Source: Chloroflexia bacterium SDU3-3
GTDB taxonomy: Bacteria > Chloroflexota > Chloroflexia > Chloroflexales > Roseiflexaceae
Reading direction: 5' to 3'
Assembly: GCA_009268125.1 (NCBI GenBank)
Contig: WBOU01000001.1
Span: 248,001 to 312,000 of the forward strand
DNA: 64,000 bases
The position numbers were made by a program, and so were the translations under genes. Below are positions 25,219 to 52,221 of this stretch, piece after piece. The first letter of the stretch is position 1. The number at the start of each line of letters is the position of its first letter. Under the pieces are notes generated by a model. It made no database searches and was not told where the DNA came from. It saw only the letters and a list, made by a program, of their open reading frames with translations.

Positions 25219-28200
25219 ATGCCCACCCGCAGCATCCACGCCGAATGGCTCCGGCTTGTCGAGCAGTCTGGCCCATTTCTGCTACCGCCCGCGCTTGATC
25301 GCGCCTTCCCGCAGGGCCTCAACGCCACCCCGCCTGATCTGACTGCGGCGCTGCGCCTCGCCTACATCGAGTGGAAGGACGCGACCCAGGGCCTCGCGCC
25401 TGACATGGCGATGCACCGCGCCTGGGTGGAGTGGGTGCTGCGCGATGTGCTGGCCATGAACGCCTCGCTCATCCGCCGCGCTGGCGGGGCGGGCGCGTGG
25501 CCCGAGGTGGGCGTGCCCGAGCACGGCGAGCTGCTGCAGCCCGACCTAGTGGTCGGCATGGCGGGCGGGGCGGCGCGGCTGCTCATCCAGGTGCTGCCGC
25601 CCTGGCAGGATCTGGGCAAGGCCCTGCCCAAGGCCCGCTGGCAGGCATCCCCGGCCAGCCGCATGGAGCATCTGCTGCGCGGCGCGGGCGTGCGCCTGGG
25701 CCTGCTCACCAACGGCGAGCACTGGATGCTGGTCAGCGGCCCCGCCGATGCGGCCAGCACCACCGGCTTTGGCTCGTGGTACGCGCGGCTGTGGCTCGAT
25801 GAGCCCCTGACCTTCCAGGCCTTCCATAGCCTGCTGGGCGCACATCGCCTGTTCGGCGTGGCCGATGAGGACACCCTGGAGGCGCTGCTGCGCGAGAGCG
25901 CGGGCCAGCGCCAGGAGGTGGCCGACCAGCTGGGCTACCAGGTGCGCCGCGCGGTGGAGCTGCTGGTGCAGGCCATCGACCTAGCCGACCAGAACGAGCG
26001 ACGCGCGCTGCTGGCCGACATTGAAAACGAGCAGATCTACCACGCCGCGCTGGCGGTGATGATGCGGCTGGTATTCCTGCTGTTTGCCGAGGAGCAGCGC
26101 CTGCTGCTGCTGGGCGACGAGCTGTACGACCGCTCCTACGCGGCGTCGACCCTGCTCGACGCGCTGCGCGAGGAGGCCGACCGCTCCGGCGAGGAGGTGC
26201 TGGAGTACCGCTACGACGCCTGGGCGCGGCTGCTGGCGCTGTTCCGCGCGGTGTTCGGCGGCATGCGCCACGACCGCCTGACGATCGCGGCCTACGGCGG
26301 CAGCCTGTTCGACCCCGACGCGTACCCGTTCCTCGAAGGCCGCGCCAAGGGGACGACATGGCGCGACACGCCCGCCATCCCCCTGCCGATCAGCAACCGC
26401 ACCGTGCTGCACCTGCTGGAGGCGCTCCAGATGCTGCGCACATCTCGCGATGGCGGCGTGGCCGAGGCCCAGCGCCTCAGCTTCCGCTCGCTAGACATCG
26501 AGCAGATCGGCCACGTCTACGAGGGCCTGCTCGACCACACCGCCGTGCGCGCCACCGATGTGGTGCTGGGCCTGATCGGCACCAGCGAGCGCGAGCCAGA
26601 GATCCCGCTGGCCCAGCTTGAGCAGCTGATGCCCAAGCTGGGTGCTGCGCCCACCGGCCAGGGCAGCCCACTCGGTTCCAACGCCATGCACGCATTCGGC
26701 GCTGGCTTACGCCTGCCCTTCACCGAGGATCTGATCAGCTTCCTCGGCGAGGAGACCGGGCGCTCGGCCAGCGCGCTGCGCAAGGCCATGAGCAGCCCAA
26801 AGGATGACGCCCAACTCGCGTCCCTGCGGTCGATCTGCGGCGACCAGAACCTGTACGATCAGGTGTACCCCTTCGCCAAGCTGGTGCGCAGCGACGACTA
26901 CGGGCGACCCGTGGTCATCAAAAAAAACCAGATCTACGTCACCTCGGGCACGCAGCGCCGCGAGAGCGGTACCCACTACACGCCCAGATCGCTCACGATC
27001 CCAATGGTCGAGCACACGCTGGAGCCGCTGGTCTATGACGGGCCTGCGACAGGCGCGCCGCAGGAAAAATGGAAGCTGCGCCCCGCCAGCGAGCTGCTGC
27101 GCCTCACGATCTGCGACCCGGCGATGGGCTCGGGCGCGTTCCTGGTGCAGTCGTGCCGCTATCTGGCCGAGCGGCTGGTGGATGCGTGGGCCGAGGCGGA
27201 AAACAAGGTGCAGGAGGATTCTGCACTGCCCGTGGAGAAGCGTGATCAGCCAGACCTCACAGACGTTTCTCTGGACACCATCGCCCCCAATAGCGTTCCC
27301 CGCTCGCATGCCCGCCGCCCGCTCATCACGCCCGAGGGCTTCCCAACCGACAACCCCGACGAGGCCATCCCCGCCGACACGCAGGAGCGACTGATCTTGG
27401 CGCAGCAGCTGGTGGCCGACCGCTGCCTGTACGGCGTGGACAAGAACCCGCTGGCGGTAGAGATGGCCAAGCTCTCGCTGTGGCTGGTGACGCTCTCCAG
27501 CGGGCGACCGTTTGGCTTTCTCGACCACGCGCTGCGCTGCGGCGACTCGCTGCTGGGCATCCGCTCGATTGGCCAGCTGATGGCCTGGGATCTGGGCTAC
27601 ACCGACGGGGCCGACGGCTCGCGCCTGAGCTTCCTGGCCGAGCCGCTGCGCTGGGCCATGGAGCGCGCGCGGTCGCTGCGCCAGCAGATCCGCCGCACGC
27701 CCTCGCTGGATGTGCGCGACACCGAGCAGAAGGCCCGCTGGCTGCGCGAGGCCGAGGAGGCCATGGACCTGCTGCGGCTGGCCGCCGACCTGCTGGTGGC
27801 CGCGCAGCTCCACAGCGATAAAAAGCAGCGCGACCTGCTGCGCATACACTTTGAGGCCAAGATGATGGGCGTAGCTCAGGCCTGGCAGGGCGCTACCATC
27901 GGCGGGGCCGGGGCGCTGCACCTCGATGCGGCGCGCGAGGTGCTAGACGAACTGCGGGAGGAAGCAGAGGATCTGCTCGATGGGCGCAGGCCTTTCCACT
28001 GGCCGCTGGAGTTCCCCGAGGTGTTTGCCGATGGCGGAGACGAGGCCGACATCGACCAGATGCTGGCCGCTGTGCGCACGGGCGGCGCGGTGCCCGAGCA
28101 GGCCGCCCCCGGCTTTGCGGCGCTGGTGGGCAACCCGCCGTTCATGGGCGGCCAGAAGATCACGGGGGCGCTTGGGACGCCCTACCGCGACTTCTTGGTG

Positions 28201-50316: not shown

Positions 50317-52221
50317 ATGGCAACACTCAAACACCCATGCGTCGGTGACGTGCGCCCCAGCCAAGTCATCTTCAGCTACGGCGTGGGCGCACTAATCGAC
50401 CTGCCCCATATTTCTGTACTGGTGATGGGGCTGAATGATTGGAATGTCGGTGGTCAAGTCTCACAGGTTATTGAGGAGGAAAGACTGCTCGAAACCATAC
50501 GTGTGCAGCTTGGCCCACAGGTCAAACAGCTCCTTGGCCCACCCGCGCTCTCACCCGAGGACGAGCAGATAGCCTTCGCCAATTCGCAAAATCACGTTGG
50601 TATTCCTGTCGCGCTCTTCCCTCGGTGGCTTGTCTGCCCACGCTGCCAACGCCTTGCGCCGCTGAGCGTCGGTCTATTCAAGCGCATCGACGATCTCTAT
50701 CACCCCGAACGTACGCGCTATGTACATGAGGGATGCGACGCATCCAAGGAGAAAAATCCTGTTGCCGTGCCCGCCCGCTTCCTGGTCGCCTGCGAGCACG
50801 GCCACCTCGACGATTTTCCGTGGATCGAGTTTGCCCACCGTGGCCCGACAAATTGCCGTCCAAAACTCCGTCTGATTGAGTACGGCCCCAGCGGTGAAGC
50901 CCGTGACCTGGAGGTGCGCTGCGAAACCTGTAAAGCATCACGCCGCCTCTCCGACGCCTTCGGCGACGAGGGGCGCAAACACATGCCGCAGTGTCGCGGG
51001 CGGCGGCCCCACCTGCGTGACACAGACCCCACACCCTGCGACCAGCACGCCAAGACCATCCTGCTGGGCGCGTCCAACCTGTGGTTCGCCAGCGCCATCA
51101 CCGCGCTGGCTATCCCCACCGAGCCGGTGCGGCTGGCCCAGCTGGTGGCCGAGAAGTGGAGCACGCTGGCCAACGCCAAAACCAGCGAGTTTCTCACCTT
51201 CGCGCGGCAGATGTCGCCCGATGCCTTCCGCGACTTTATCGGCTACACCGACGCGCAGATCTGGGATGCCATCGAGCGCAAGCGCGCCGCCGACGCGGCA
51301 GGCGAGCGCCCCAGCGACATCCCCGACCTCAAGCGCAGCGAGTGGGAGCAGCTCGCGCAGCCCGCCAGCCACACGCCGACCAAAGACTTTCGCCTGCGCG
51401 AGACCGCCGTGCCCAGCGGCTTTGCCGACACGCTGGCGCGCGTGGTGCTGGTCGAGCGGCTGCGCGAGGTGCGCGCCCTGATCGGCTTCACGCGCATCGA
51501 CGCCCCCGGCGAGTTCGGCGAGGAGCTGGCCGCCGCCGAGGTGCGCCGCGCCCCCATCAGCCGCCAGCCGCCCGCCTGGGTGCCCGCTGCCGAGGTGCGC
51601 GGCGAGGGCATCTTCATCCAGTTCCGCGAGGATGCGCTGGCCGCGTGGCTGCGCCAGGGCGCGGTGCAGCAGCGCGACGGCCAGTTCTCCAATGCCCACA
51701 TGCGCTGGCGGCAGTCGCGCCACCTCACCCCGCCGGAGGCGTTCTACCCCACCATGCGCTACGTGCTGCTGCACAGCTTCGCCCACGCGCTGATGCGCCA
51801 GCTCGTGCTGGAGTGCGGCTACACCGCCGCCAGCCTGCGCGAGCGCATCTACGCCAGCGCGCCCACGCCTGACCAGCCCGCCGACCCCATGGCGGGCGTG
51901 CTGATCTACACCGCCGCCCCCGACAGCGAGGGCACGCTGGGCGGCCTGGTGAGCCTGGGCGAGACCGCCGCGCTGGCCCGCCACCTGCGGGCGGCCCTGC
52001 GCGACGCCGAGCTGTGCGCATCCGACCCGCTCTGCGCCGAGCACGAGCCGGGACTGCGCGGCACCACCGTGCACGCCGCCGCCTGCCACGCCTGCCTGTT
52101 TGCGCCCGAGACCTCGTGCGAGCGCGGCAACAAATACCTCGACCGCGCGGCGCTCATCCCAACAATGGAGCAGAGCACTATCGCCTTCTTCCCACCAGAC
52201 CTTAAGATAGGTTTGCTCTAG
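50317..52221 (+). CDS. drmB: DISARM DUF1998 protein DrmB
   Basis: 634 residues. The DUF1998 region is C-terminal (LLHSFAHALMRQL, then GVLIYTAAPDSEGTLGGLV). Cysteine clusters occur early (CPRCQRL near 107; CRGRRPH) and at the end (CHACLFAPETSC with CERGNKYLDRA), suggesting zinc sites. GAGGAGG precedes the ATG. It forms the DISARM core complex with DrmA. The gene for DrmC, which often follows, is missing; a VOC gene with its own promoter comes next. The middle (bases about 50320-50760) is less GC-rich than the rest of the gene. Confidence 0.9.
   Translation: MATLKHPCVGDVRPSQVIFSYGVGALIDLPHISVLVMGLNDWNVGGQVSQVIEEERLLETIRVQLGPQVKQLLGPPALSPEDEQIAFANSQNHVGIPVALFPRWLVCPRCQRLAPLSVGLFKRIDDLYHPERTRYVHEGCDASKEKNPVAVPARFLVACEHGHLDDFPWIEFAHRGPTNCRPKLRLIEYGPSGEARDLEVRCETCKASRRLSDAFGDEGRKHMPQCRGRRPHLRDTDPTPCDQHAKTILLGASNLWFASAITALAIPTEPVRLAQLVAEKWSTLANAKTSEFLTFARQMSPDAFRDFIGYTDAQIWDAIERKRAADAAGERPSDIPDLKRSEWEQLAQPASHTPTKDFRLRETAVPSGFADTLARVVLVERLREVRALIGFTRIDAPGEFGEELAAAEVRRAPISRQPPAWVPAAEVRGEGIFIQFREDALAAWLRQGAVQQRDGQFSNAHMRWRQSRHLTPPEAFYPTMRYVLLHSFAHALMRQLVLECGYTAASLRERIYASAPTPDQPADPMAGVLIYTAAPDSEGTLGGLVSLGETAALARHLRAALRDAELCASDPLCAEHEPGLRGTTVHAAACHACLFAPETSCERGNKYLDRAALIPTMEQSTIAFFPPDLKIGLL

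Follow-up and report, generated by a model that had tools for sequence, protein, structure and literature searches.

Which of the genes that lie inside a defence locus belong to its machinery, and which are passengers? The question is raised by a 27-kb DISARM (defence island system associated with restriction-modification) island in Chloroflexia bacterium SDU3-3, analysed here in a stretch of 64,000 nucleotides that we call the window (positions 248001-312000 of contig C1 in a genome of 6.76 Mb and 51 contigs). All nine genes of the island are located on the + strand of the window (25219-52221), in the order drmMI, drmD, rmuC, a JukB-like gene, GmrSD with a HEPN domain, a DUF4011 helicase gene, a RelE-UvrD fusion gene, drmA and drmB (Table 1). 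A sequence-only reading had described this arrangement, with drmMI and drmD at one end, drmA and drmB at the other and same-strand inserts between them, and family matches and coordinates agree with it; the same reading took the inserts to be parts of the DISARM system or co-regulated with it. Our comparison points to a more selective answer, to which we give somewhat better than even chances, namely, a drmC-less variant of class 1-type DISARM in which a RelE-UvrD partner would dock on a STAS-like N-terminal domain of DrmA, with the other inserts being cargo.

Both class 1 markers, drmD and drmMI, are recognized by PADLOC, and drmA, which encodes a YprA-type helicase, directly adjoins drmB, as class 1 DISARM requires. 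The gene for the phospholipase D (PLD) nuclease, drmC, was not found in the window (best E value of the DrmC query, 0.27), and the gene after drmB is of the glyoxalase/VOC type. By these matches, the island is class 1-type DISARM without drmC. Among the 29 drmA loci sampled from the window's phylum (described below), 13 gave a match to the DrmC query, three of these being among the 12 with RelE-UvrD, and drmC sits after drmB in the three nearest relatives (G246, G260_C107 and G061_C65).

Co-occurrence of RelE-UvrD and a DrmA N-terminal domain

We searched for drmA in 400 genomes drawn from a larger set of the window's phylum, Chloroflexota, and obtained a match in 46 of these. The 29 loci fetched were mostly the highest-scoring, with lower-scoring YprA matches left out, and 25 had a readable upstream region (only about 1.1 kb in G094_C86); the other four start at a contig edge and none of them carries the domain discussed here (G267_C32, G260_C68, G132 and G206). 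In 12 of the 25 readable loci, a RelE-UvrD gene is present on the same strand, at most 2 kb upstream of drmA (G246, G260_C107, G279, G293, G346, G340, G124, G364, G196, G334, G061_C65 and G084). It is missing from the remainder (G120, G304, G034, G078, G050, G041, G089, G003, G079, G094_C86, G044, G061_C48 and G094_C219), among which G304 has a different helicase-like gene in the same place. In all 12 loci with RelE-UvrD, profile searches showed that DrmA begins with an additional domain of about 85 residues (split by a frame break in G124); this domain was found in 0 of the 13 loci without RelE-UvrD. A wider, 19-member profile run without speed filters yielded the same distribution.

The first domain profile was built from 12 sequences, one from the window and one each from 11 of the 12 loci with RelE-UvrD, so that the matches of these sequences are by construction. 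The independent evidence consists of the absence in 13 loci, of G124, L222, L200, L201, L207, L099, L037 and L038, and of domain-first searches in two phyla. This first profile was compared with 17,763 frames from the fetched loci and with 12,106 from 78 control loci; its matches were confined to frames downstream of RelE-UvrD, with none in the controls. These controls come from a contig search with generic UvrD motifs that returned 80 loci, mostly helicase-part matches; the other two, L088 and L099, were used as relatives. The domain also heads YprA-type frames of about 1,819-1,905 amino acids behind RelE-UvrD in L037, L038, L099 and L207, none of which contributed to the profile. These four loci are ARMADA-like: each has RelE-UvrD and a YprA-type helicase and, as far as its contig reaches, a methyltransferase and a helicase of the BrxHII/drmD-like kind; PADLOC, which predates ARMADA, labels the L207 helicase DruE.

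Altogether, the drmA-first and RelE-UvrD-first searches yielded the domain in 20 of 20 co-directional arrangements of RelE-UvrD and a YprA helicase, window included. In three of these (G279, G293 and G364), one open reading frame (ORF) lies between RelE-UvrD and drmA; in L201, the domain is a separate ORF of 129 amino acids, in L200 the contig ends after the domain, and G124 and L222 are broken. Profile searches found the domain in 0 of 38 other fetched RelE-UvrD-family loci, including L212 and L214, with divergent YprA, and the BREX locus L039. This set comprises L039 and 37 of a set of 42 loci, some clipped by contig ends; L209 and L234-L236 are helicase-part matches only, and L216 and L217 lack a UvrD label despite a sequence match. 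When the 400 genomes were searched from the domain side with the 19-member alignment, 18 places in 15 genomes were identified, 17 of them at most 2 kb downstream of RelE-UvrD.

The domain sets the window DrmA apart from the solved class 1 structure. Residues 112-1251 of the window DrmA align with residues 135-1307 of DrmA in Protein Data Bank (PDB) entry 7s9v, and window residues 1-111 do not align with 7s9v residues 1-134. The DrmA of G089, from a locus without RelE-UvrD, aligns from 7s9v residue 58, so a different domain occupies the N-terminal position in the window protein. The usual N-terminal part of class 1 DrmA, described as EVE-like in PMC12458937, is absent from the window DrmA in the alignment to 7s9v, and most other DrmAs encoded without RelE-UvrD start close to the core.

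Several comparisons bear on the identity of the domain. Pfam STAS_2 matched five of 19 members weakly (best E value, 6.5e-5), the window member scoring 18.9 bits with a cut-off of 29.2, and the best PDB profile match was the STAS protein 7ch8, at a weak E value of 0.19. An AlphaFold2 model built from two sequences had a mean pLDDT (predicted local distance difference test) of 91.3; structure comparison of this model gave a Z score of 5.0 with RsbV (75 aligned residues, root-mean-square deviation 3.4), 4.5 with a non-STAS entry and 3.8 with SpoIIAA. Foldseek returned no match to the model at 0.001 (best E value, 0.85), a missing fold match that proves nothing. In the alignment to 7s9v, the domain stops a little ahead of the region that corresponds to the autoinhibitory trigger loop, which in Serratia DrmA spans residues 176-232 (PMC9142583). 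We found no earlier description of RelE-UvrD in DISARM or of the STAS-like domain in the open-licence PubMed Central text, supplements aside.

The first 90 or so residues of the RelE-UvrD protein are RelE-like (PDB RelE3, E value 5e-7; Pfam ParE_toxin, 23.5 bits with a cut-off of 23), and several Arg and Tyr positions here do not vary among the 12 sequences aligned. The rest is a superfamily 1 (SF1) helicase in which the Walker A lysine and the DEAQ residues are likewise invariant in all 12. With ArmD of E. coli ATCC 8739, the protein shares its layout, and the two match at 28% over 488 helicase residues, the RelE parts being aligned only in the two-sequence alignment; by these alignments, RelE-UvrD is a distant relative of the ARMADA protein ArmD. 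Stand-alone RelE-UvrD genes exist as well, and on a Deinococcus plasmid, a RelE-UvrD gene is located between brxC and an N6 methylase gene in a BREX locus (L039:11632-13653).

We traced these features on quick trees, some with long branches. The DrmA tree, of 34 cores, calls for five changes of the domain and six of RelE-UvrD, and across the independent pairs RelE-UvrD accompanies the domain in 3.3 of four on average and never runs counter to it. For the RelE-UvrD family, a tree of 54 proteins calls for seven changes in the DISARM label, at least six of them forced by starred branches. Given these label changes, RelE-UvrD seems to have moved repeatedly among stand-alone, ARMADA-like and DISARM settings.

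The domain-first search was extended to 244 genomes of Cyanobacteria, the phylum of the Pseudanabaena genome G400. Of these genomes, 21, with G400 among them, carry the domain, at 23 places, some on DrmA and others on ArmC-like helicases; one of the places (G554) starts at a contig edge. Taking both phyla together, the loci seen to have RelE-UvrD shortly upstream of a YprA helicase also have the domain, and the converse fails. The neighbouring genes of cyanobacterial loci were identified by a scan that covered 10 and 7 proteins only. In some of the loci that lack RelE-UvrD, the slot before the helicase contains toxin-antitoxin-like genes, namely, UPF0175 and DUF3368 genes (L288), nucleotidyltransferase and HepT-like genes (L294) or a PIN gene (L290 and L296), and in others a Uma2 gene (L287) or a radical SAM gene (L291). 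Such genes also adjoin RelE-UvrD itself, with UPF0175/DUF3368 in L281 and genes annotated as Phd/VapC and PIN in L037 and L038. In one cyanobacterial DISARM locus (L280:10006-16540), two genes stand immediately ahead of RelE-UvrD and drmA, one encoding a 1967 amino acid protein with DarT as its C-terminal domain and the other a macro-domain protein.

The other inserts and their surroundings

Direct reading of the junctions agrees with the spacing given in the sequence-only reading: 12 bases between the DUF4011 and RelE-UvrD genes, -4 bases (an ATGA overlap) between RelE-UvrD and drmA, and 1 base between drmA and drmB. The drmD-rmuC, rmuC-JukB-like and JukB-like-GmrSD gaps each amount to about 330-440 bases, so the tight block comprises only the DUF4011, RelE-UvrD, drmA and drmB genes. 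Given the long frames and the very strong family matches, chance is no concern.

Table 1. Features of the island in the window (aa, amino acids)
Feature	Position	Strand	Evidence
drmMI, class 1 DISARM methyltransferase (Eco57I/MmeI type), 1705 aa	25219..30336	+	PADLOC DrmMI 1711.8 bits; Pfam Eco57I, MmeI_Mtase, MmeI_TRD
drmD, SNF2-like helicase, 1059 aa	30415..33594	+	PADLOC DrmD 1420.2 bits
rmuC-like, N-terminal hydrophobic stretch, frame broken near 34190	33934..35396	+	Pfam RmuC E 9.7e-94; two frames needed
JukB-like, 410 aa if the TTG is the start	35834..37066	+	PADLOC JukB 1.2e-17
GmrSD (N + C domains) with Swt1-like HEPN, type IV restriction-like	37396..39489	+	Pfam GmrSD_N 7.9e-27, GmrSD_C 2.3e-6, HEPN_Swt1 6.5e-4 (below cut-off); PADLOC HEC-05
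DUF4011 SF1 helicase + MTES_1575 nuclease + DUF3320, 1603 aa	39577..44388	+	PADLOC PDC-S37
RelE/ParE (about 1-90) fused to UvrD/GajB-like helicase, 694 aa, ArmD-like	44401..46485	+	Pfam UvrD_C, UvrD-helicase, ParE_toxin
drmA, YprA-family helicase, 1277 aa	46482..50315	+	PADLOC DrmA 1057.8 bits
STAS-like N-terminal domain of DrmA (residues 1-88)	46482..46745	+	Profile and alignment comparisons
drmB (MZB/DUF1998-type), 634 aa	50317..52221	+	PADLOC DrmB 257 bits; Pfam MZB

Relatives of the DUF4011 protein are present in 19 of 201 genomes of the phylum, that of the window included, and on 336 plasmid records. We examined 16 of these loci, from 10 of the 18 other phylum genomes and six of the 336 plasmid records, and in 0 of 16 was there a match to any other island protein. 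Conversely, the DUF4011 protein had no match on any of the 29 drmA contigs, and on these grounds, the DUF4011 helicase was rejected as a constant part of DISARM. In L320, an annotated UvrD-helicase gene stands beside DUF4011, with no match to window proteins at 1e-6. On a Vibrio plasmid (L321, 7911-16191), two DUF262 genes follow the DUF4011/DUF3320 gene, an echo of the GmrSD-DUF4011 order in the window; they too have no match to window proteins at 1e-6.

The RmuC and GmrSD proteins had no match in the 29 drmA loci. GmrSD relatives occur in seven of 82 genomes of the order, including that of the window, and the nearest (53%) is on a contig other than the DISARM contig of its genome. In the ARMADA-like locus L207, a GmrSD relative (29%) is encoded just before RelE-UvrD, so that this slot may attract GmrSD. 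The JukB-like protein was matched in two of the 29 drmA loci, both among the three nearest drmA relatives, yet a second, 49% identical gene exists in the genome of the window (G000:C11:188205-189446). The rmuC gene is probably inactive, unless the frame break is a sequencing error; in Pseudomonas, DISARM-like operons that contain RmuC-domain genes have been described (PMC10270631). The most plausible reading of rmuC, the JukB-like gene, GmrSD and DUF4011 is that they are exchangeable defence cargo, placed after drmMI/drmD and ahead of the RelE-UvrD-drmA-drmB block.

In G279 and G346, drmB is followed by a gene for a 786 amino acid AAA_5 ATPase (L049:12235-14592 and L053:11752-15738), in G346 then by a weak PD-(D/E)XK match; genes of similar size follow drmB in G340, G124 and G364. 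The G246 locus encodes, downstream of drmC, a fusion of an EVE domain with an AAA_5 ATPase (L040:4418-6583), and in the DISARM locus of G061_C48, a 1439 amino acid WD40-repeat protein is encoded directly before drmA (L085:14376-18692).

Promoter and terminator scans of the window gave no signal clearly above chance: 12 terminator-like sites were found, compared with 8.0 +/- 2.7 in shuffles, the sole + strand site being at 35746-35761. The drmD-rmuC gap contains a 23-base repeat in two copies (33630-33700), none being expected by chance, and a similar stretch lies near 37100. Judged by eye, the rmuC/JukB-like gap (35500-35640) resembles what is left of a TnpB-type gene, and a pair of ORFs left of the island (12799-13884 and 14172-15284) look TnpB-like. 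Four tandem tRNA-Lys genes and one tRNA-Arg gene are located at 11100-11680.

A proposed docking partner for DrmA and the alternatives

In the mechanism that we propose, RelE-UvrD would dock on the STAS-like domain of DrmA, beside the autoinhibitory trigger loop, so that DrmAB, on engaging 5'-overhang phage DNA, would bring RelE-UvrD to the same substrate. There it could add unwinding or cleavage as a second motor, of the SF1 class and equipped with a RelE-type domain, perhaps replacing DrmC. Gene order, its recurrence, the joint presence of domain and gene and the N-terminal difference from 7s9v are observed, and the pairing is argued from co-occurrence; the docking, its timing and the cleavage target of the RelE domain are what we infer.

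Several observations weigh against this reading. As many as 13 of the 25 readable drmA loci lack any RelE-UvrD; at G267:C20, the exception in the domain-first search, the domain heads an ArmC-like helicase frame without RelE-UvrD; and in Cyanobacteria, RelE-UvrD is at most 2 kb upstream of the domain at only five of 23 places and present in full length in only seven of 21 domain-bearing genomes. In E. coli ATCC 8739, ArmC lacks a STAS-like domain even with the ArmD gene immediately downstream. Cyanobacteria, G267:C20 and E. coli ARMADA thus break any strict one-to-one pairing of RelE-UvrD with the domain, and we rejected such a rule. Moreover, the DrmA tree offers only four independent pairs (sign test, p 0.125-0.25), so that the association is not significant there, and every test gives the STAS assignment weak backing, making the domain STAS-like rather than proven STAS.

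The broader view of the sequence-only reading, that all inserts including the DUF4011 helicase form one enlarged DISARM machine, appears improbable to us. The nine genes on one strand, the 12 bases between DUF4011 and RelE-UvrD, the terminator-like sites that do not clearly exceed chance and the DUF262 genes after DUF4011 on the Vibrio plasmid speak for such a machine; DUF4011 is nonetheless without a match on the 29 drmA contigs, its own 16 examined loci share no other island protein and its relatives occur on the 336 plasmid records, the upstream cargo is set off by the wide gaps, and rmuC is frameshifted. The claim thus survives for RelE-UvrD, with the domain present each time in the loci that carry it, and is not supported for DUF4011; GmrSD also speaks against it, given where its nearest relative lies, and the JukB-like gene recurs in two of the three nearest relatives but has a second copy in its own genome. 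Of the pattern named beforehand as telling against the claim, relatives mostly without the inserts and recurrence of these at random, the first part is what we see for DUF4011, whereas the recurrence of RelE-UvrD is non-random. It is still less probable that RelE-UvrD is a mere defence-island neighbour, unconnected with DISARM function: it does occur alone, in ARMADA-like loci and once in BREX, and many drmA loci manage without it, but where it adjoins drmA it lies close by on the same strand and always with the DrmA domain.

Two further alternatives accept the pair and explain it differently. RelE-UvrD and the domain might travel together solely as one piece of DNA, through their gene overlap and with no working contact, which we consider unlikely, although it deserves more weight than the views just discussed. 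The ATGA overlap would ease joint movement, many cyanobacterial loci keep the domain by itself and stand-alone RelE-UvrD genes exist; on the other side, the domain heads two helicase types (DrmA and ArmC-like) behind RelE-UvrD, labels change several times on both trees, and G279, G293 and G364 keep the pair despite an intervening ORF. The domain could also be imagined as an antitoxin of the RelE domain, given a RelE-type domain encoded beside a small partner domain and the invariant Arg and Tyr positions of the RelE part. This we rejected as the least credible proposal of all, in view of the 38 RelE-UvrD-family loci without the domain, the domain without RelE-UvrD and E. coli ArmD, which exists without the domain.

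A more general proposal, offered tentatively and with clearly less confidence than the docking of RelE-UvrD itself, is that the STAS-like domain may be a docking port on YprA-family defence helicases, in DISARM and ARMADA-like systems, for exchangeable effector modules: RelE-UvrD in the window's phylum and some Cyanobacteria, toxin-antitoxin-like pairs (PIN/UPF0175, HepT/nucleotidyltransferase) in other Cyanobacteria. If this is true, DISARM would be a modular platform with swappable second effectors.

Relation to DISARM, ARMADA and other known systems

For the effector step of DISARM, RelE-UvrD is a concrete candidate in part of the family, as a recurrent extra motor tied to a swapped DrmA domain near the trigger-loop region; the nuclease DrmC is reported to appear non-essential and not to co-purify with DrmAB (PMC9142583). 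RelE-UvrD also links DISARM to ARMADA, where its relative ArmD is essential: in E. coli ARMADA II, all four genes are needed and a Walker A mutant of ArmD is inactive, as reported in PMC12458937. The comparison further shows which genes of the island to suspect first.

The island shares with class 1 DISARM, as represented by Serratia DrmAB (7s9v; PMC9142583), strongly matched drmMI, drmD, drmA and drmB genes and an alignable DrmA core. It differs in the STAS-like N-terminal domain of DrmA, the added RelE-UvrD gene and the missing drmC, and drmMI precedes drmD in the window, whereas drmD comes first in relatives where both are seen. ARMADA Type II (ArmABCD; PMC12458937) has in common with the window the ArmD relative RelE-UvrD, an ArmA that drmD matches at 30% and an ArmB that drmMI matches at 25%. 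In contrast, the YprA helicase of the window is DrmA with a separate DrmB, not an ArmC with the DUF1998 region in the same protein, and RelE-UvrD precedes this helicase, whereas ArmD follows ArmC. With the ShdA/RmuC genes embedded in DISARM of Pseudomonas (PMC10270631), the island shares an RmuC-domain gene inside a DISARM operon; the window rmuC is frameshifted. Finally, the PADLOC models PDC-S37, HEC-05 and JukB match three cargo proteins of the window, which are not constant DISARM parts in the loci examined.

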